DNA from: a virus
DNA: 21,472 nucleotides
Reading direction: 5' to 3' (one strand)
IMG/VR virus record: IMGVR_UViG_3300035702_000239
Span: 1 to 21,472 of that record
Shown: positions 1 through 9,326 of the stretch, one piece after another
How positions within the stretch are numbered: the stretch's first letter is position 1
Layout: every line of letters starts with the position of its first letter
Notes under the pieces: model-generated
What the model saw: the letters and a program-made list of their open reading frames with translations, nothing else
Databases searched by the model: none
What the model was told of the DNA's origin: nothing
Position numbers and translations under genes: made by a program

Positions 1-1148
1 CCTTTTGACATATTATATGATGAATCAACAGCAGCCAAATTTGTATAATGTCCTATTATAGCAGGGTCTATGTCATCAAGAAAGCCTTGTTTTTTTGAGT
101 ATACATGATCTAAGTGGTATCCGCTTACTTTGTGTTTATCAAAGTTAGGAATTTTGTCACTATGATTGATAATTGATAATTGAGTGTGTTTTTGTACTTC
201 GCTCATGTATGAATCAACTTCATAAGAATCCAATAACTTTAGTGAGTTATGGGCCAATGAAAATTGCGTCAAACGTTTTCTGTATTCTGTTTCCCAATCA
301 TCCCCATACTTTGCTTTATAAAAATCTTCGCCATTTGAGACAAATAAAGCCCGCCTGTCTTTCCATTTATCTTCCCAATCATTGAAGCGCATCATAAAAT
401 GTTCAACGGTATTACCTTTCCTGTATCCCTCGCGCCTTCCTACCCAATTAACATGGCCATGTTTTGTAATATAATCTTCTTTTCTGAGTCCCTTTGTTGG
501 ATTAATCGAATTCATAATTCCATCAATCTCATCTTCCGTATATCCCCTACTCACATAATATTGTCGGTTTACACCAGCATTGTTTAGCTGAAATTCAGAA
601 ACTAATTGAGAGGCTTCAACTTCCGAATAACCAAGATCAATATAATGTTCAACACACCACTTTGATGATTTCTTATACTTTTCAATCAAGGCATCACTAC
701 CATATTTTTCCCTATATTCATCTATCCATTTGACACTGGTTTTCTGAAATTTTTTAAATTTCTTTTCGCCAGCCTCTTTACCGTGTCTTTTTATAAACCC
801 ATCTTTGCTAGTACATTTATTCTTTTTTAATTTATCAACATATTCTTGACAGTATGTTATGTCACGGTTAAATTTGTATGTGAGTAGTTCAGCATTATAA
901 AGCCAATGCGGAGGTTTTATATTATGCCTTTTTACGTATTCCATCATATCATTAAAATGTGCAACAAAATCTTGTGGATAGTGATGCATATTCATTAAAA
1001 GACTATGAACTTGCTTACCACATTCTGATCCATGAACTTTCTTTATAAAAGAAAAATCATGGATTGCTTGTGTAAAAAGTGTGTCATCGTAATCAATTAC
1101 AGCATCATCTAATTTTTTTCTTAGGTTCTCTATGACATTCTTTCTCAT
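1..1148 (-). CDS. HNH-type free-standing homing endonuclease (3' end outside window)
   Basis: An uninterrupted minus-strand frame runs from ATG at 1148 to the window edge (382 codons, no stop). The start has a good Shine-Dalgarno (AAGGGA, 1156-1161, 7-nt spacing). The C-terminal part seen here reads YHLDHVYSKKQGF, then GHYTNL and SYNMSK. This is the H-x-D-H ... N-L ... N-x-x-K pattern of an HNH nuclease core common in phage homing endonucleases. Upstream, near residues 145 and 235, are two copies of a K-H-G-centred motif (FIKRHG, YITKHG) that I take to be DNA-binding repeats. The gene directly follows an nrdA fragment ending in an intein N-half, so it is probably the endonuclease of a fractured intein locus that promotes spread of the insertion. 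It has its own late-promoter/hairpin leader. Family assignment is from motifs only. Confidence 0.85.
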   Translation of the reverse strand, partial: MRKNVIENLRKKLDDAVIDYDDTLFTQAIHDFSFIKKVHGSECGKQVHSLLMNMHHYPQDFVAHFNDMMEYVKRHNIKPPHWLYNAELLTYKFNRDITYCQEYVDKLKKNKCTSKDGFIKRHGKEAGEKKFKKFQKTSVKWIDEYREKYGSDALIEKYKKSSKWCVEHYIDLGYSEVEASQLVSEFQLNNAGVNRQYYVSRGYTEDEIDGIMNSINPTKGLRKEDYITKHGHVNWVGRREGYRKGNTVEHFMMRFNDWEDKWKDRRALFVSNGEDFYKAKYGDDWETEYRKRLTQFSLAHNSLKLLDSYEVDSYMSEVQKHTQLSIINHSDKIPNFDKHKVSGYHLDHVYSKKQGFLDDIDPAIIGHYTNLAAVDSSYNMSK

Positions 1149-1168
1149 GGTATATTCCCTTAATTATT

Positions 1169-1211
1169 CCTGATTTTATAAACCTATATGAATAGTATTT
1201 ATAAAATCAGG
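1169..1211 (-). promoter_or_regulatory. 14-bp perfect hairpin in endonuclease leader
   Basis: Arms 1169-1182 and 1198-1211 are perfect 14-bp inverted repeats with a 15-nt loop, between the nrdA fragment and the endonuclease ATG. No U-tract follows on the minus strand, so this is not a typical terminator. The 3' arm ends 8 nt before the Shine-Dalgarno. A read-through transcript would form the hairpin; a transcript from the late promoter inside it would lack the 5' arm. T4 homing endonucleases (I-TevI, Mob and Seg types) are known to be held silent early by a hairpin and expressed from a late promoter, and this architecture matches. Confidence 0.75.
1196..1203 (-). promoter_or_regulatory. T4-type late promoter TATAAATA
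   Basis: Minus-strand TATAAATA is an exact match to the T4 late-promoter -10 element recognised by gp55/gp33/clamp polymerase. It overlaps the 5' arm of the hairpin. Transcription would be expected to start a few bases downstream, in the loop, about 40 nt before the endonuclease ATG. Confidence 0.65.
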
Positions 1212-1228
1212 GGTTCAAATGCCTACAC

Positions 1229-1588
1229 TCAAGACATGTGTGTCACAATGTCATCATCTTCAGATAGTTCAATTGCCATTTTCCAATGCTCTTTACCATC
1301 AGCATCTTTAACAAGAAATTTATGATGATGAGTACATTTGATAACATCCCCGTTTTCCATTGTGATATTAATATAATTGTTGTAGCCATTGTACCACACA
1401 CGTTCCACTTCTTTCAAACCAAATCGAGTTTTAACCTGAATTGGTGTCTGTAAAGAATACCATTGACCACCATTAAATTTATCATAATCAGCAACAGCTT
1501 CTTTGAAATCAACTTCAGCCAGATTGAATATCTGCTTCATGGACATATTACCCATTGAAGTCTGAATTTGTTGGTCTTCGTGCAAACA
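1229..1588 (-). other. Split-intein N-terminal fragment (IntN, 119 aa)
   Basis: This segment encodes nrdA residues 621-739. It begins with the nucleophile Cys directly after the conserved NrdA peptide MPSES. It contains an intein block A-like start (CLHEDQQIQT) and block B with the T-x-x-H of CTHHHKF. It ends about 25 residues past block B with a stop codon, the usual end of naturally split IntN pieces such as those of NrdJ-1 and gp41-1. No endonuclease domain, block F or block G is present. Protein trans-splicing with a downstream IntC is inferred. Confidence 0.88.
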
Positions 1589-3448
1589 ACTTTCGCTAGG
1601 CATATGCGCACATACAACAGAGTTTCTAATACCCCCATTGGTGATAACTTCTCGCCTCAATTCTTCCCAATCGTATTGTAGATCAGTACCCACTACAGCG
1701 TCAACATTCCTATTGTATGTGTCGATAGGCATCCAACCATCAACCCATTTTGTTTTATTGATCCATGGAGCATTACCAAGCTCTTTACCCAATTTCAGAC
1801 TTGCTTTGATCAGATAGTACATATGCTTTTCTGATACGTTGTGAATCTCTTTCTTGCCTTCCTCAGAGCTATAGCGAAAGCCTTTCTTAGCCATGTGATG
1901 AGCCAATCCGATAATACCCACACCAGCATTGAGTCTTGACTTAGCAGTAACTCCCAAATGCGGAAGTTCGTAATGTGTTCTATGAATGCATTTGTCGATC
2001 ATAAGCAATGCATAATAACAAGCTTTTTCGTATTCTTCATCATTCTTGACATTAGAAACAACAATACCGCCCAACGAACATAGAGCAATTTCACCCTTAC
2101 CATGATCTTCATAGGAATACAAGTCTGCCATATTCTCATACCCATCTGTAGGTAGAGAAATCTCAGCGCACAGATTGGAACTATAAATCTTATCATAGAA
2201 CGGAGTGTGTCTGTTCATCTCATCAGCCCAATGTAAATAGGAGCGTCCGGTTTCATAAGCTTCATTCAATGATGTCAGTAGTGTGTTTCTGGCATTTACA
2301 TAAGTTTTCTTAAAGTTGTCATCGTTTTCATACTTCTCATAAAGACTAGCAAACAATTCATCATCTTCACTATAAAATGCTTTGTAAAGATCGGGTGCAG
2401 TGAAAACGTTGAATAAAAATACTTCTTGATTTTTAGCAGCTTTCCTAGCATAAAACTTGTTGGTTCCTGCGTTATAATCCATGCCACGGATTTTCTTGTC
2501 CTCTGTAGACATAGGATTTTTTAATTGAGAAATAACGTTTACTTCTGGATCAAACATAGAATAATATGTTGTAGCAGCCCCACCACGACCATTCTGTAAA
2601 TTGGCTTTGATAGCCCCAACCAATGATCTATAGTATGGGAGTTTGCCTTGATGCTTAATCATACCACCACGGACAGGATCACCAACAGAACGAATTTGAT
2701 GATGTGCGCCAATTCCAGCACTCATGTACGTCATGGTGTATGCTATATGATCACCGATACCGATTGATTGTGCATTGTCATTAACAGTATACAAGCAACA
2801 ACTGGCAAAGCCTCTGAGAGAGGTTCCAAGGTTGACATAGTTGGGAGTAGGGGCATTGATCACCTTGTTAGATAAAAGCTCATAGAATGCGGTCACATCA
2901 ACCATACGAGTATCTTTTGGTTGATCTTCGGCAAGCGCCATAGCCATACGCATATAAACAAACTGTTGCGATTCGTATTCATCACCAGTGACACGATTAC
3001 ATAATGAATATTTTTGTCGAACCTGTTTCAATTCAAAATGACTTGCTTTTAAATCTTTATTGTGATCAATGAGTTTTTCAATCTCATCATATTCTTGATC
3101 TGTATAGCTAAGATATTCCATGATACCAAGCTTCTGTAATTTATGGTGCAGAGCCTTGACAGTCGGAATGTCACCATCATACAGTGTTTTATAGATCAGG
3201 GCCGCATACAGTCTACCCGCCATACGGTTATAAGGCCATGAATTGTATTCAAGACAGGTTTTTATTAATCTTTCTTGTAGAACTTGGGAAAAAGATTCTT
3301 TCGGGAGTGTGCTAACTGTGTGCAGTACAACACTAGACCAATCAACTTTCGATCCTAAATTTTTTGAGGCCCATTCACCCCATTGATTGACTTTTGATGG
3401 GGAAAAGGGTTCTCTATCCCCATTGCGTTTAACAATAGTTTCTATCAT
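1229..3448 (-). CDS. nrdA: Ribonucleotide reductase class Ia large subunit, N-terminal part fused to split-intein N-half
   Basis: 739 residues. Residues 1-620 are the alpha subunit that reduces ribonucleoside diphosphates. They include an N-terminal ATP-cone-like segment (MIETIVKRNG), active-site cysteine region FASCCLY (C217/C218), the NLCAE motif (N425, C427, E429) and the partner cysteine in ALCSLGG (C457). The enzyme breaks off at MPSES (616-620), the conserved site aligned with MPCESSSQ in T4 NrdA. Residues 621-739 are an intein N-half: C621 as first residue, a block-B-like IKCTHHHKFLV, and an end at LSEDDDIV plus four residues and TGA. The C-terminal radical-transfer tyrosines and redox cysteines are missing and should be encoded with IntC beyond position 1. 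I chose ATG 3448 for its Shine-Dalgarno (GAGGAA) and ATP-cone start; the frame stays open upstream to 3505 without support. Confidence 0.93.
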   Translation of the reverse strand: MIETIVKRNGDREPFSPSKVNQWGEWASKNLGSKVDWSSVVLHTVSTLPKESFSQVLQERLIKTCLEYNSWPYNRMAGRLYAALIYKTLYDGDIPTVKALHHKLQKLGIMEYLSYTDQEYDEIEKLIDHNKDLKASHFELKQVRQKYSLCNRVTGDEYESQQFVYMRMAMALAEDQPKDTRMVDVTAFYELLSNKVINAPTPNYVNLGTSLRGFASCCLYTVNDNAQSIGIGDHIAYTMTYMSAGIGAHHQIRSVGDPVRGGMIKHQGKLPYYRSLVGAIKANLQNGRGGAATTYYSMFDPEVNVISQLKNPMSTEDKKIRGMDYNAGTNKFYARKAAKNQEVFLFNVFTAPDLYKAFYSEDDELFASLYEKYENDDNFKKTYVNARNTLLTSLNEAYETGRSYLHWADEMNRHTPFYDKIYSSNLCAEISLPTDGYENMADLYSYEDHGKGEIALCSLGGIVVSNVKNDEEYEKACYYALLMIDKCIHRTHYELPHLGVTAKSRLNAGVGIIGLAHHMAKKGFRYSSEEGKKEIHNVSEKHMYYLIKASLKLGKELGNAPWINKTKWVDGWMPIDTYNRNVDAVVGTDLQYDWEELRREVITNGGIRNSVVCAHMPSESCLHEDQQIQTSMGNMSMKQIFNLAEVDFKEAVADYDKFNGGQWYSLQTPIQVKTRFGLKEVERVWYNGYNNYINITMENGDVIKCTHHHKFLVKDADGKEHWKMAIELSEDDDIVTHMS

Positions 3449-3464
3449 TTGTTCCTCTTTATTT

Positions 3465-4031
3465 TTAAATTTTATTGGTGATAAGGTAATCAACAATAGC
3501 CACACAATCTACCACATCACCAATGGGTGATTCAATCGTCTTTCGAGAATAATCGAGAATGGTTCTCAAATCCATATCGAAGCGATTATCAAATGCTTCA
3601 AGCATGGCTTCTTTTTTAGAATTACCCTTTCCAGAAAAGTGTTTTTTAATCGTTGTTGGTGCAGGCGTAGAAAATTCAATACCATTTTGCCATAGTTTGT
3701 ATTTGAGAAGGCCAGTGTTTTCGCCTATGTTAAACACCACACCTTTTGATCCCATTGAATAGCCTTCTAAAGCAACTTCCTTGACATTGAATTTTTGTAG
3801 GATTGCCAGCGACCATTCTGAAATATTGTCGAATCTTTCCATTTCAGATTCATAAGGAATGTGAGCCATTCCATAGATGTTTTTGTTGAAGCTGGACTTG
3901 TATTTAGTCTGAGAAGTGTAGAAAAACACTTTCACATCATTAAAATTTTTAATCGGTTTCATAGGATGAATTGCAATTGCAGGGCAGGACATTGAATAAT
4001 CAATTCCAGCTACCATAACTTTACTCATCAT
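3465..4031 (-). CDS. RuvC-like Holliday-junction resolvase (RNase H fold)
   Basis: About 188 residues. Features fitting the RuvC-type RNase H fold: a first strand AGIDYSMSCPAIAI with the catalytic Asp (near residue 11), an internal VALEGYSMG strand supplying Glu, a conserved middle section (NIGENTGLLKYKLW, then PAPTTIKKHFSGKGNSKKEA), and a C-terminal acidic pair in GDVVDCVAIVDYL. Such enzymes cut Holliday junctions or branched DNA, so here it likely serves recombination-dependent replication or packaging. The gene overlaps the zinc-ribbon gene upstream (ATGATGAGTAA), implying coupled translation; ATG 4031 or 4028 could be used, with only a weak Shine-Dalgarno. It ends just before nrdA. Assignment is by motif recognition; a general RNase H-fold nuclease is the alternative. 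Confidence 0.75.
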   Translation of the reverse strand: MMSKVMVAGIDYSMSCPAIAIHPMKPIKNFNDVKVFFYTSQTKYKSSFNKNIYGMAHIPYESEMERFDNISEWSLAILQKFNVKEVALEGYSMGSKGVVFNIGENTGLLKYKLWQNGIEFSTPAPTTIKKHFSGKGNSKKEAMLEAFDNRFDMDLRTILDYSRKTIESPIGDVVDCVAIVDYLITNKI

Positions 4032-4173
4032 CACTACCCATTTCTAACTCACCGCGTTCATATTCTGTCTCAACGGCATCACCACAAAACGGGCAATAAG
4101 CTACTTCTGAATTATCACTCAATACAATGTATTGCTGATCACAACTTGGACATATAATTTCTTGTTTTAACAT
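4021..4173 (-). CDS. Small zinc-ribbon protein (50 aa)
   Basis: A 50-residue protein with CPSC (residues 8-11) and CPFC (27-30), a complete four-cysteine zinc-ribbon. The acidic tail (GELEMGSDDE) overlaps the RuvC-like start. The Shine-Dalgarno AAGGAA (4182-4187, 8-nt spacing) lies inside the 3' arm of a 16-bp hairpin, so translation may be controlled by RNA structure. Function unknown; a nucleic-acid or protein adaptor for the adjacent nuclease would be a guess. Confidence 0.75.
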   Translation of the reverse strand: MLKQEIICPSCDQQYIVLSDNSEVAYCPFCGDAVETEYERGELEMGSDDE

Positions 4174-4224
4174 AAAAAAAATTCCTTGTAGAAAATTACT
4201 TAACTTGATTTCTACAAGGAATTT
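4174..4224 (-). terminator. 16-bp hairpin plus U-tract that also covers a Shine-Dalgarno
   Basis: Perfect inverted repeat 4179-4194 / 4209-4224 with a 14-nt loop. A run of T follows on the minus strand (complement of 4174-4181) and abuts the ATG of the zinc-ribbon gene. It resembles a rho-independent terminator for the gene at 4247-4684. The 3' arm contains AAGGAA, the best ribosome site for the next gene, so read-through mRNA would have that site sequestered. Confidence 0.75.
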
Positions 4225-4246
4225 ATATGCTATTAAAATTCAGTTT

Positions 4247-4684
4247 TTAAATGGTTTGTATGATAGTAATAGCCTGTATATCATATATTCTATTAACCAT
4301 AACTGCTTCAATAAAATAATGAATATCGTTCATTGAACATGAATCAAAAATTATTTTTGATGGTATAGTAGTACACCCCCTAAATCTGTTGAGATTTTTA
4401 ATGACATTAATAGAAATAGCCACATCAAATCCCAATTCTTTATTAATATCCCTAGCCAAAGTAATATTATCACATACAACTACAATTTCATCATCACTCC
4501 CTTGAACATATTGTTTAATTGCATTTGTATGTCCACACCGACGACCAAAACTAAACATTGTAGCTTTTTCAAGTGGATATGCGTTATTATACATTGGGTT
4601 TTTGAAATGATCGGTTGAAATTTCAACCATACCTCTAAGTAATTCTAATGTGTTGTAAGTCTTAACTGTTTTTACTAATTGCAT
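4247..4684 (-). CDS. Unknown phage protein with P-loop-like motif
   Basis: 145 residues, no confident family. A glycine-rich GRRCGHTNAIKQY near residue 48 resembles a degenerate Walker A (G-x-x-x-G-x-T), followed by a hydrophobic strand (IVVVCDN). Later KIIFDSCSM resembles a Walker B or DEAD-like strand ending in Asp. This suggests a reduced ATPase or helicase-like core, but the usual GK[S/T] lysine is absent. The gene lies between gp32 (upstream) and the zinc-ribbon/RuvC pair, with a terminator on each side, so it may be its own transcription unit. Start at 4684 has a usable GAGG (4689-4692, 4-nt spacing). Confidence 0.7.
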   Translation of the reverse strand: MQLVKTVKTYNTLELLRGMVEISTDHFKNPMYNNAYPLEKATMFSFGRRCGHTNAIKQYVQGSDDEIVVVCDNITLARDINKELGFDVAISINVIKNLNRFRGCTTIPSKIIFDSCSMNDIHYFIEAVMVNRIYDIQAITIIQTI

Positions 4685-4696
4685 ATTTTACCTCAT

Positions 4697-4717
4697 AAAA
4701 AAAGGGGCCGTAGCCCC
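4697..4717 (-). terminator. Rho-independent terminator after gene 32
   Basis: On the minus strand GGGGC-TACG-GCCCC is followed by seven Ts (complement of 4697-4703). It lies 18 bp beyond the gene 32 stop and just before the next gene. The strong stem and U-run are typical of the terminator that insulates highly expressed gene 32. Confidence 0.88.
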
Positions 4718-4734
4718 GTAAAGTTTGTTAGTGA

Positions 4735-5739
4735 TTAGTCACCGTTTGCTAGGCGCTCAAATTCACTAAGTAAATCATCATCGTCATCATCTTCTACAGC
4801 ATTAGGCTTTGATTGTACTTCATCAACAACCTCTGGTTCAGGCTCTTTTCCTTTGCTTGAGCTATCATCTTCACCAGAAGCTTCTTTATACTGGTCACGA
4901 AAATCGTCTTCTGCTTCCTTAGCGTGATCCTCAGAGGTCTTATCAAGCTTGTCGTAGTCCTCACCAGTAACAGCTTTGAACCGTTCTGAAAGCTCATCAA
5001 ATGACTTCACAGTAGCAAATTCAGACAGGTCATAGGTCTTTTCAAAGATTTCTTTCATCTTATCTTCGTCACCACCCATGAACTCACCAACATTACCAAA
5101 CAATGATTCTTCATAGTTAGGTACAACTACCTTATTACCAGTACGCTGATCAGGGATTTCATGACCGATAGCACGAATCTTGAGAGGCGCACCACTCCAC
5201 AGATCGAATGGATCAACAGGATCATCGTCTTCAAATTTAGGGTTAATCGCACCCTCAATCACTTTGAAGATTTGTGGTCCACATTCCATGATCATCACCT
5301 GACCTTCGCAATCAGGATTATTCTTGTCTTTCTCTACATAGACGTTGAAGAAATACTTCGTTCTGCGTTTACGATTACGTGCAACATTCTGGAATTTCTT
5401 TTTGTCTTCCGCGTTATCAGCCTTTTCCCCTAACTGCCAATACAAACCATTAGAAATACCTACAGGGTCTTTCTCATCAATGGTTGAACGAGAGTTTTCC
5501 CAATAGAAGTTATTGCCAACGTTAAAAGAATGGCTGAATTGGCGCACAAAATTGTCACCTTCCTGCGCGGGAAGTAAACGAATCACAGCATTACCAATAC
5601 CTTCTTTCTTATCAAACCCCGGCTTATAAATGCGTTCATCTTTCTTTGCACCACTGCCTTTGTTCATACCCTCAAGTTTTTCTGCCATTGCCTTGAGATT
5701 ACTACCTTTCTTTTTCTTTAGAGCGTTGAAATTAGCCAT
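4735..5739 (-). CDS. 32: Single-stranded DNA-binding protein gp32, zinc-ligand-deficient variant
   Basis: 334 residues (T4 gp32 has 301). Basic N-terminus (LKKKKGS) matching the LAST region used for cooperativity; a core with AVIRLLP, FNVGNNFYWE and TKYFFNVYV matching the T4 core; a long low-complexity linker; and an acidic C-tail (EDDDDDDLLSEF) used to recruit replication partners. gp32 coats ssDNA and organises replication, recombination and repair. T4 coordinates zinc with H64, C77, C87 and C90. Here the His is kept (H70) but the three Cys positions read S83, D91 and G94 (DPVG in place of CPVC), so the zinc site is absent. The start overlaps the gp59 stop (TAATG). A strong terminator follows. 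Confidence 0.93.
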   Translation of the reverse strand: MANFNALKKKKGSNLKAMAEKLEGMNKGSGAKKDERIYKPGFDKKEGIGNAVIRLLPAQEGDNFVRQFSHSFNVGNNFYWENSRSTIDEKDPVGISNGLYWQLGEKADNAEDKKKFQNVARNRKRRTKYFFNVYVEKDKNNPDCEGQVMIMECGPQIFKVIEGAINPKFEDDDPVDPFDLWSGAPLKIRAIGHEIPDQRTGNKVVVPNYEESLFGNVGEFMGGDEDKMKEIFEKTYDLSEFATVKSFDELSERFKAVTGEDYDKLDKTSEDHAKEAEDDFRDQYKEASGEDDSSSKGKEPEPEVVDEVQSKPNAVEDDDDDDLLSEFERLANGD

Positions 5740-7054: not shown

Positions 7055-7276
7055 TTATAGTTTGTAGTAGAGTGAATCTGTATCAGGTCGATCACCGTTA
7101 AAGATTTCCATAAGCTTAATAAACTCTCCCTTGTACTTGTCGAGGGAAAACTTAAACCATTCCCCATTGGATGTATCATGATTACCAACAATGATACACC
7201 CTTTTTTAGCCTTGAGTCCAAACATTTCCTCTACACAGATTGCATACCCCACACATTGTAGGGCATATTTGAACAC
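7055..7276 (-). pseudogene. Displaced 3' remnant of the RecB/MGME1-like exonuclease gene
   Basis: The frame (73 codons, opening at a GTG with no Shine-Dalgarno) encodes FKYALQCVGYA ... KKGCIIVGNHDTSN ... DSLYYKL. This is homologous to the last 76 residues of the complete exonuclease at 8342-9085 (FRYAMQIHGYA ... EKGCIIVGNHNTSN ... ESVYFRL). Homology starts abruptly at the codon aligned with F172 of the full protein; just upstream is the leader of the inserted plus-strand endonuclease and an in-frame stop. It keeps the Q-x-x-x-Y motif but none of the D/D-x-K catalytic residues, so it should be inactive. The copies are clearly diverged, so this is not a recent exact duplication. Confidence 0.85.
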
Positions 7277-7279
7277 AAG

Positions 7280-7291
7280 TATTTATAAATA
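7280..7291 (+). promoter_or_regulatory. Overlapping divergent T4-type late promoters
   Basis: TATAAATA occurs on the plus strand at 7284-7291, 33 nt before the endonuclease start. Its reverse complement occurs at 7280-7287, forming the palindrome-like TATTTATAAATA. The plus-strand copy can drive the inverted endonuclease gene late in infection. The minus-strand copy would point into the exonuclease remnant and the genes beyond. Confidence 0.65.
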
Positions 7292-7324
7292 TCTAGTATA
7301 ACCTATCTATACGAGAAAATAGTT

Positions 7325-8347
7325 ATGAACTCAAAAAACCTTTATAAAATTTTATCCTCTAAGGAACACAATACACACTATCTTAACAGGTATTTGAATT
7401 TTGTCAATGCTTGCAATGAAAATAATTTTAATTTAGAAACATTTGAAAAGCATCATATATGCCCATCATCAAAAAATCTTTGGCCTGAATATAAATCAAA
7501 ATATAAAAATTCGTGGAATATAGTGAATTTAACTCCAAGGCAACATTATATAGCTCATTGGATTTTAGCTAGATGTTTTGGTGGTGGTATGTGGTTTGCC
7601 TTTAACATGATGTGTAATGGACAAAGAAAGGAAAGAAAATATAGAGTTTCTAGTAGAGCTTATCAAGAGCTTAGAAAAAATCTTTCTGAATTGTTATCTG
7701 GTAGAGTTGTATCAGAAAAAACCAGAAAGATGATGTCGGAAGCTAAAAAAGGAAAACCTCTTTCTGATCAACATAAATATAGGTTATCGCTTGATGTTAA
7801 AAATAAATTATGGATTTATAAAAATAATGAATCAAAACGAGTAAATAAAAATGAAATTGGGGTTTACTTAAATTCTGGTTGGTTAGTTGGTAGAGTTGAT
7901 TTTACAGATGAAGCTAAAGAAAATATGTCAAAATCGACAAAAGGTGTATCCAAACCAACGCGATCAGAAGAACATAAACAGAACATAGGAAAAACTGTAA
8001 AAAATAAAGTCGCAGTTAGGGATACAGAATCCAATACAAATATAGTTTTTCGTTGTTCCGTTGATGATCCACATTATTTATCTGGTAGGTACGTTTTTCA
8101 AGGAATTGGTAGAGTTGTTTCGGAAGAAGATAAAGAAAGAAGAAGAAATTTGGTCATGGTTCGTGATACGGAGTCAGATTCTACAGAATCATTCACTTGT
8201 GATAAAAATGACCCACATTGGATTTCTGGTAGGTATGTAGGCCACACAAAAGGGATAAAAGTAAAATGTCCTCACTGCGAAAAAGAAGGTGGTAAAGGTG
8301 TTATGACTCGTTGGCATTTTGAAAATTGCAAACAGAAGATTTCATAA
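7325..8347 (+). CDS. HNH homing endonuclease with NUMOD3-like repeats and C-terminal zinc finger
   Basis: 340 residues, the only clear plus-strand gene. An N-terminal HNH core: EKHHICP (residues ~41-47), NSWNIVNLTPRQHYIAHWIL (H-H ... N ... H). NUMOD3-like DNA-binding segments: VSEKTRKMMSEAKKGKPLS near 131-149 and RSEEHKQNIGK near 218-228. Two repeats of the type VRDTES ... DPH(Y/W)(L/I)SGRYV (around 234-258 and 280-305). A C-terminal finger CPHC ... MTRWHFENC. Typical of T4-like Mob-type mobile endonucleases that cut a recipient gene and spread by repair. It is inserted in reverse within the exonuclease gene; its stop overlaps the exonuclease stop by 6 bp. The Shine-Dalgarno is weak (ACGAGAAAA). 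Confidence 0.93.
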   Translation: MNSKNLYKILSSKEHNTHYLNRYLNFVNACNENNFNLETFEKHHICPSSKNLWPEYKSKYKNSWNIVNLTPRQHYIAHWILARCFGGGMWFAFNMMCNGQRKERKYRVSSRAYQELRKNLSELLSGRVVSEKTRKMMSEAKKGKPLSDQHKYRLSLDVKNKLWIYKNNESKRVNKNEIGVYLNSGWLVGRVDFTDEAKENMSKSTKGVSKPTRSEEHKQNIGKTVKNKVAVRDTESNTNIVFRCSVDDPHYLSGRYVFQGIGRVVSEEDKERRRNLVMVRDTESDSTESFTCDKNDPHWISGRYVGHTKGIKVKCPHCEKEGGKGVMTRWHFENCKQKIS

Positions 8348-9085
8348 TCTAAAATATACACTTTCATTAATGCTGCATTCGCCTTTGAATGCAGCAATCA
8401 AAATATCAAATTCCTTAACATAAAAATCATCATATACATTAAAATTTATTTTTTCCGAATTTGATGTGTTATGATTCCCCACAATAATACATCCTTTCTC
8501 AGCTTTGTATTTCTCACCAAACATATAATAAAAAGCCCTAGCGTATCCATGTATTTGCATTGCATATCTGAAAGATTTTTTTCTTCCTAAAGAGGTTTTG
8601 GTGTTTATTGGCTTTCTTGAATTTTTATGATCAACAATGGTTAATTTTTTATTCATACGGACTATTGCATCAACCCTACCAGCATAGCCATCAACATCGT
8701 TGTACAAGGCTACCTCGCAACCGTGAACAACCTCTATGGTATCAAGCAATGGCTTCACACGGTTGAACAATACCTTGCCCTTACCGCGTAGCTCAGAGCG
8801 ATCTAGCTCATTGCGTAAATACATCTCATTAAGATCATGAAGCGAGTTACCGCGTGTGGATGCTTCGGTTTTAATTCGTTCAGATTCTTCCACACCAACA
8901 CGCTCAATCCATGCATCTATACCCCCATCATCAAGAATACCTAAAATAGTGGTCATGGATGGTAGATTACCTACAGGGGTCTTGTAGAATCGCTTACCTG
9001 TTTCCTCATTAGTAACGGATTCCATTTCATCATACACCAACGGCTCCCAATCAAACGTTTTCCATGTGAAGGGGTCATTCTTCAT
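8342..9085 (-). CDS. RecB/MGME1-like PD-(D/E)XK exonuclease
   Basis: 247 residues from ATG 9085. N-terminal LPSMTTILGI; helix with RGNSLHDLNEMY (H83); E124; catalytic core GYAGRVDAIV (D139) then TIVDHKNSRKP (D152, K154), the PD-(D/E)XK pattern; followed by YAMQIHGYA (Q177, Y181), the Q-x-x-x-Y motif. This layout matches the RecB-like/MGME1 single-strand exonuclease family, likely used for DNA processing in replication or host DNA breakdown. The 3' third (8342 to about 8660) is visibly more AT-rich than the 5' part and resembles the adjacent endonuclease in composition. Together with the remnant at 7055-7276, this indicates that the 3' end was replaced during homing. The start overlaps the upstream membrane gene; the Shine-Dalgarno is weak. 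Confidence 0.85.
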   Translation of the reverse strand: MKNDPFTWKTFDWEPLVYDEMESVTNEETGKRFYKTPVGNLPSMTTILGILDDGGIDAWIERVGVEESERIKTEASTRGNSLHDLNEMYLRNELDRSELRGKGKVLFNRVKPLLDTIEVVHGCEVALYNDVDGYAGRVDAIVRMNKKLTIVDHKNSRKPINTKTSLGRKKSFRYAMQIHGYARAFYYMFGEKYKAEKGCIIVGNHNTSNSEKINFNVYDDFYVKEFDILIAAFKGECSINESVYFRL

Positions 9086-9326
9086 ATGAAGTACCACCAC
9101 CGTTCATAATACTGTTTGGATTATATCTTGTTGAGTATAGGTGAATAAAAATTACTATGTAAATTGCAGATGGAAGCCCAAGGAAAACCCACCAAAATAC
9201 TTCAAGTGGTATAAATCCATACTTAATGTCAAGTAATCCAGTAACCAAAACAAGACTTGGTGCATAAATCATCATAGCTAGAAAAAAAGATTTTAAGATT
9301 GCTTCTAATAATCTATATCTAATCAT
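9075..9326 (-). CDS. Small membrane protein, two transmembrane segments
   Basis: 83 residues. Hydrophobic helices at about 9-32 (ILKSFFLAMMIYAPSLVLVTG) and 43-66 (VFWWVFLGLPSAIYIVIFIHLY); polar C-terminus ending GGGTSYEE. No family recognised. The ATG overlaps the stop of the preceding gene (ATGA), so translation is probably coupled. It is part of a run of three small membrane-protein genes. Confidence 0.65.
   Translation of the reverse strand: MIRYRLLEAILKSFFLAMMIYAPSLVLVTGLLDIKYGFIPLEVFWWVFLGLPSAIYIVIFIHLYSTRYNPNSIMNGGGTSYEE

Follow-up and report, generated by a model that had tools for sequence, protein, structure and literature searches.

The nrdA gene at one end of the virus record IMGVR_UViG_3300035702_000239 encodes an enzyme essential for making DNA precursors. 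It is very probably a fractured gene as Dassa et al. 2009 use the term, split by a mobile cassette that homed into it recently. The cassette consists of the N-terminal half of a split intein (IntN), a free-standing HNH-type homing endonuclease gene and the C-terminal half of the intein (IntC). The stretch analysed here, called the window, covers bases 1 to 21,472 of a linear virus fragment 29,301 bases long. Window position 1 is the contig end, and because of this the sequence of the phage past that point cannot be read. Dassa et al. in 2009 reportedly described fractured genes as genes for conserved enzymes that a split intein interrupts, its two halves being separated by a free-standing endonuclease gene. 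A preliminary description of this DNA had read the locus in the same way, and that reading is supported by IntC fused to the C-terminal part of NrdA (IntC::NrdA-C) in relatives. The recent mobility of the cassette, seen from uninterrupted (empty) alleles in sister phages and from co-converted flanks, is a point beyond what was claimed there.

Split intein and gene layout

The 1229–3448 (−) open reading frame encodes 739 amino acids (aa), consisting of NrdA (residues 1–620) followed in the same frame by an intein N-half. Residues 5–622 align with E. coli NrdA 7–626 (E about 1e-107), and the product displays the Pfam ATP-cone, all-alpha and barrel domains. The final S of MPSES is residue 620 and Cys1 of IntN is residue 621. 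The open reading frame, Pfam and the alignment thus confirm that the NrdA frame ends right after MPSES and continues as a 119-aa, Cys-initiated IntN with the block B sequence CTHHHKF, as had been noticed from the window alone. With numbering by alignment to E. coli NrdA, the insertion point lies between the equivalents of T624 and S625. The NrdA loop that holds this site binds the substrate phosphate.

IntN terminates at a stop codon at 1231–1229. Of the properties expected of a split-intein N-half (a Cys or Ser start, blocks A and B), all are found in IntN. The TIGR01445 intein_Nterm model gives 36 bits (cut-off 24.5). The Pfam Intein_splicing model matches residues 627–736 with an E-value of 6e-7, which is under the cut-off because only half of the intein is present. 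When IntN is joined to the IntC of the relative L003, the same model gives 53.8 bits and E 2.5e-14 (cut-off 35.8).

Relatives are given here by L numbers. In three from IMG/VR (L003, L004 and L005) the order is nrdA-N::IntN, HNH gene, and a 36-aa IntC fused to NrdA-C, with the IntC-extein junction ..VVHN|SSKAS... An open reading frame of this kind, with 35–40 residues ending in HN followed by S and the NrdA C-terminus, had been predicted to adjoin the window and is present in all three. Downstream of IntC::NrdA-C, L003 and L005 carry nrdB; the L004 contig stops inside NrdA-C. L006 shows the same gene layout with an IntC of 39 aa, and throughout L003–L006 IntC starts about 14–30 bases before the HNH gene ends. 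The predicted ligated junction, MPSES-SSKASGTTNG, is the reading of uninterrupted NrdA. The window's own phage presumably continues into IntC::NrdA-C as L003 does.

An alignment of the HNH family brought up this arrangement again, at an identical NrdA position, in L023–L030, L026/L027 and L031. The L023–L030 contigs are up to 196 kb in size and some stop before IntC; IntC::NrdA-C is present in L023, L026 and L031 besides L003–L006. In each of these loci IntC belongs to a separate polypeptide and ends in HN followed by Ser. Cys1, the T..H of block B, the terminal HN and Ser+1 are kept in all split members compared. IntN and IntC together interrupt the enzyme gene at a single point, and an endonuclease gene separates the two halves.

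Matches of phiKZ-like NrdA sequences that begin inside IntC led to the suspicion of another intein; this was rejected, as the annotation of 201phi2-1 and OMKO1 gives NrdA as one open reading frame with no intein.

It is highly unlikely that nrdA is merely a pseudogene broken by the cassette, with the phage using the host ribonucleotide reductase, or that the two unspliced pieces work as a complex. Unspliced working nrdA pieces do occur in the phage Aeh1 (cited in PMC3653736; PMC2988022), and the disrupted Campylobacter phage nrdA has been called degenerating (PMC3653736). Against this, the two NrdA pieces are both open reading frames, and all splicing residues are retained across widely diverged split members. 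The cut also falls in the active-site loop, which could presumably hardly accommodate a 119-aa tail left unspliced.

Table 1. Features of the fractured nrdA locus, in window coordinates
Feature	Positions	Strand	Basis
Homing endonuclease gene, free-standing and HNH-like; 382 aa read, open at contig end	3..1148	(-)	motif, homology, cassette identity to L003
RNA hairpin with 14-15 bp stem, lying between IntN stop and endonuclease start; z = -3.5 for the intergenic fold	1169..1211	(-)	RNA folding
TATAAATA, T4-type late-promoter -10 element in 5' arm of hairpin	1196..1203	(-)	sequence match
IntN, 119-aa N-terminal half of split intein, plus stop codon	1229..1588	(-)	Cys1, block B CTHHHKF, profile scores
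Co-converted flank, 9 nt, reads AGCGAAAGT	1589..1597	(-)	comparison with L003 and L035
nrdA N-extein, 620 aa, ends MPSES	1589..3448	(-)	E. coli NrdA alignment; identity to empty-site alleles L034/L035

Empty sites and transfer between phages

A search with the NrdA part found 41 relatives. The nrdA sequences of L034 and L035 are 100% identical to the first 1,851 nucleotides (nt) of the window's nrdA, yet are uninterrupted and read MPSES|SSKAS. The L035 nrdA is a full-length open reading frame, and L035 is 99.2% identical to the window upstream. Over the 1,588 nt available, the cassette is 99.75% identical between the window and L003, two phages with only about 77% NrdA identity. The nrdA flanks of this pair are 60–78% identical in 50-nt steps, and the identity jumps to about 100% at the intein boundary. 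An independent case is that of L004 and L005, where the cassettes are 99.6% identical and the N-exteins 90%. L004 has near-identical empty alleles in L043, L050 and L052 (L050/L052: 99.1% over the last 580 nt), and the L005 C-extein and nrdB are 99.5% identical to those of the empty L038–L040.

The 9 nt before the insert read AGCGAAAGT in the window and in the occupied L003; the empty sister L035 reads TCTGAATCT. Upstream of these 9 nt the window sequence is that of L035 throughout. L004 departs from its empty sister over 10 nt on the 5′ side, where it agrees with the occupied allele, and over up to 15 nt on the 3′ side. Co-conversion of flanking sequence is known to accompany homing (PMC2988022), and the 9-nt match to the occupied allele is, from these alignments, a footprint of homing co-conversion. 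Empty alleles, sequence-exact insertion, co-converted flanks and transfer between diverged genomes, the marks of a homing element, are all found. The comparisons show, at the level of sequence, the anatomy of the cassette, its exact boundaries and its empty sites, together with its recent horizontal transfer.

Presence and absence alone do not give a direction, and the cassette might have been gained long ago in a common ancestor and lost in L034 and L035. Such a loss would have to be exact and to restore different codons (TCTGAATCT for AGCGAAAGT), and the 99.75% cassette identity to a phage with about 77% NrdA identity requires a recent transfer in any case; we consider this course of events very improbable.

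An assembly artefact, in which an L035-like empty nrdA has been joined to the cassette of another phage, is extremely unlikely. The window contig does end inside the cassette, as it would where shared sequence breaks assembly, and near-identical empty alleles exist. However, near the N junction L035 and L003 share no exact match longer than 12 nt, which is below the usual assembly word size and makes a chimeric assembly unlikely. The join is in frame and at the exact intein boundary, with the 9-nt co-converted flank. Moreover, L004 and L005 repeat the pattern, and in L003–L006, L023, L026 and L031 the cassette is present with both of its sides.

For a fractured nrdA with recent homing, the following course is proposed. 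The IntN-HNH-IntC cassette interrupts the coding sequence for the PSES|S substrate-phosphate loop, and two polypeptides would be produced, NrdA(1–620)::IntN and IntC::NrdA-C. The intein halves would associate and trans-splice by way of Cys1 and HN|Ser+1, giving a full, scarless NrdA. The HNH enzyme is probably expressed late, since the hairpin of Table 1 would block its start region on read-through transcripts. It may then cut the unoccupied nrdA of a co-infecting relative near the insertion site, and repair would copy in the cassette plus a few flanking nucleotides.

Endonuclease gene and points against the reading

A free-standing gene follows IntN in the window and in the relatives, as the preliminary description had it, and its label as an HNH endonuclease stands by motif and homology. 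The complete copy in L003 encodes 413 aa. The label is based on an H-x-D-H..N..N pattern, which is invariant in six homologues. PHROGs matches of the window product are to 5104 and 23051, families of unknown function, and no relatives were found in bacterial and archaeal genomes.

Several results count against a fractured nrdA with a trans-splicing intein and an HNH endonuclease. In a fold search of PDB with the AlphaFold model of IntN (predicted local distance difference test, pLDDT, 65) there was no match with E ≤ 0.001, and the best, the GyrA intein, gave E 0.36. No Pfam model matched the endonuclease product over cut-off, the HNH (beta-beta-alpha-Me) profile included, and the AlphaFold model of this protein is poor (pLDDT 48); like that of IntN, it offers no usable fold evidence. 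The IntC and NrdA-C of the window's own phage lie outside the sequenced contig, and the loci nearest to the window are all metagenome contigs.

A profile search of PDB sequences with IntN gave weak intein matches only (E 0.1–1). Of the comparison with known inteins envisaged in the preliminary description, the joined IntN and IntC came out over the Pfam cut-off and the model of IntN alone found no significant match. Intein and NrdA trees were made by a quick method from few columns and are not relied on. A contiguous intact nrdA elsewhere in the genome had been named as evidence contrary to a fractured gene; the 29.3-kb record shows a single NrdA match, and neither a second NrdA match nor IntC::NrdA-C was found in it.

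Hairpin and late-promoter element

All six cassettes that were folded show a strong hairpin at the same place (z −3.5 to −7.7), differing in sequence. TATAAATA is found inside the hairpin in three of the six, i.e. the window, L004/L005 and L006; it arises in about 1–5% of shuffles of these short regions. In L006 and L023 the start codon is within the 3′ arm of the hairpin, and in the window the HNH ribosome-binding site is just outside the stem. In T4 endonucleases, including the Aeh1 mobE, a hairpin and a late promoter delay translation to late transcripts (PMC2988022). For the window HNH gene, a T4-type hairpin/late-promoter control is at most suggested.

An autorepressor operator, i.e. a copy of the homing site upstream of the HNH gene as in I-TevI, was also considered and rejected, as the best matches are no better than in shuffled sequence.

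Contiguous and fractured inteins

Among isolates, the inteins closest to the window IntN are those of Campylobacter phage nrdA (31–37% tblastn identity). These Firehammervirus inteins occupy the same NrdA site as in the window. In CP220, CP20, CPt10, CC_R7 and IBB_35 the intein is contiguous, whereas in CP21 and WX1, which share 94–97% DNA identity with CP220 and have the same intein, it is split by an inserted HNH-type gene. At the insertion about 25 bp are replaced, and the new ends read ..GDSIICKN* and MVVKNIKI... The WX1 gene is homologous to the HNH family of the window (hhalign E 1.5e-21); the CP21 copy is frameshifted. CP220 and CP21/WX1 are, as judged from their alignment, a natural before/after pair for the origin of a fracture. 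Insertion of the HNH gene into a contiguous intein would be the simpler direction than its loss, because contiguous forms also occur in the more distant F336.

Further insertions in nrdA

In L003, nrdA consists of three pieces, with two split inteins and two endonuclease genes. At site 1 a split intein at SSNL|C is accompanied by a GIY-YIG gene (Pfam E 1e-11); site 2 carries the cassette of the window. In L003, L050, L051 and L052 the site-1 cassette is 99.9% identical, but between the adjacent N-extein of L003 and those of the other three the identity is only 79%. The site-1 cassette is missing from L043, which matches L050 at 99.5%. WX1 also has split inteins at both NrdA sites, with two unknown open reading frames between the site-1 halves. 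Because L003 and WX1 have split inteins at both sites, we tentatively propose, at somewhat less than an even chance, that nrdA is the target of two independently mobile split-intein cassettes (SSNL|C with GIY-YIG, PSES|S with HNH), and that three polypeptides would be joined into one NrdA through two trans-splicing reactions orthogonal to each other. No description of a natural three-piece NrdA enzyme of this kind was found in the available literature. The split intein NrdA-2 presumably resembles the site-1 (SSNL|C) intein of L003 rather than the PSES|S intein of the window.

Other nrdA genes show related features. In L003, the region upstream of nrdA (1–2172) is 99.95% identical to L051 and the N part of nrdA (2173–3453) only 79%; the switch coincides with the start of nrdA, which looks like an exchange of the gene between phages. 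The nrdA of CPt10 (L014), CP20 (L016) and CC_R7 (L017), at 766–4834, is annotated as a pseudogene in CPt10 and as two reductase genes in CP20 and CC_R7. It also reads as a fractured gene, in which NLC|C would be interrupted by a split intein whose halves are separated by two unknown open reading frames, and PPAGN|S by a contiguous intein; the site-1 halves were read in WX1 and IBB_35. In IBB_35 (L013, 244–2373) nrdA has one more contiguous intein, located after IQIGRGG|C (..SHN|SSNLS), a third insertion site in this gene. L031 (2098–4815) encodes a 905-aa nrdA-N with an apparent contiguous intein at SNLC plus a split intein at LPSES|S.

Comparison with known systems

Since fractured genes were already known (Dassa et al. 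2009), the window nrdA is an added case and not a new kind. The proposed new split-intein variant holds as a new sequence family; the arrangement itself is known. The cases of Dassa 2009, known here through citing papers, share the layout of the window nrdA; seven intein-interrupted nrdA subunits from ocean metagenomes are attributed to that study in PMC3653736. Beyond what those papers give, the present loci include empty-site sisters with co-converted flanks and a contiguous-to-split pair. NrdA-2 is a split intein in a metagenomic NrdA (PMC7090010). In the Aeromonas phage Aeh1, nrdA is, as in the window, split by an HNH gene, mobE, whose hairpin and late-promoter control (PMC2988022) may have a parallel in the window, but the Aeh1 nrdA has no intein and its two pieces work unspliced. 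The DNA polymerase B of MIJ3 is like the window in that a phage replication gene carries a split intein and a free-standing HNH gene, but the host gene is another one, and empty-site or transfer evidence was not found for MIJ3 in the parts of the report consulted (PMC6892783).

Scattered metagenome fragments seldom reveal whether a fractured gene moves as a whole unit. In the present case near-identical phages carry occupied and empty alleles, sequences resembling the donor as well as the recipient are available, and the Campylobacter phage pair displays the contiguous and fractured states of one intein. What is new is this unusually direct and clean indication, from aligned alleles, that the fractured unit moves. 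Fractured genes have been proposed as a missing link that would connect split inteins to inteins with an endonuclease built in. With the sequences now known, direct tests can be made of the homing model, of how split inteins originated and of whether two split inteins in the same enzyme are orthogonal. New naturally split inteins are also tools for protein engineering.

Second HNH insertion in the window

At window positions 7055–9100 a PD-(D/E)XK exonuclease gene is broken by a second HNH homing endonuclease gene, at 7325–8347 (+) (phrog_655, E 7e-44). In L035 the exonuclease gene is intact (136–882). The second insert brings a divergent replacement 3′ end for the exonuclease, and the old 3′ end is left as a remnant at 7055–7276. 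At 7284 (+), 41 bases ahead of this second HNH gene, there is a further TATAAATA; the first HNH gene is likewise preceded by this element.

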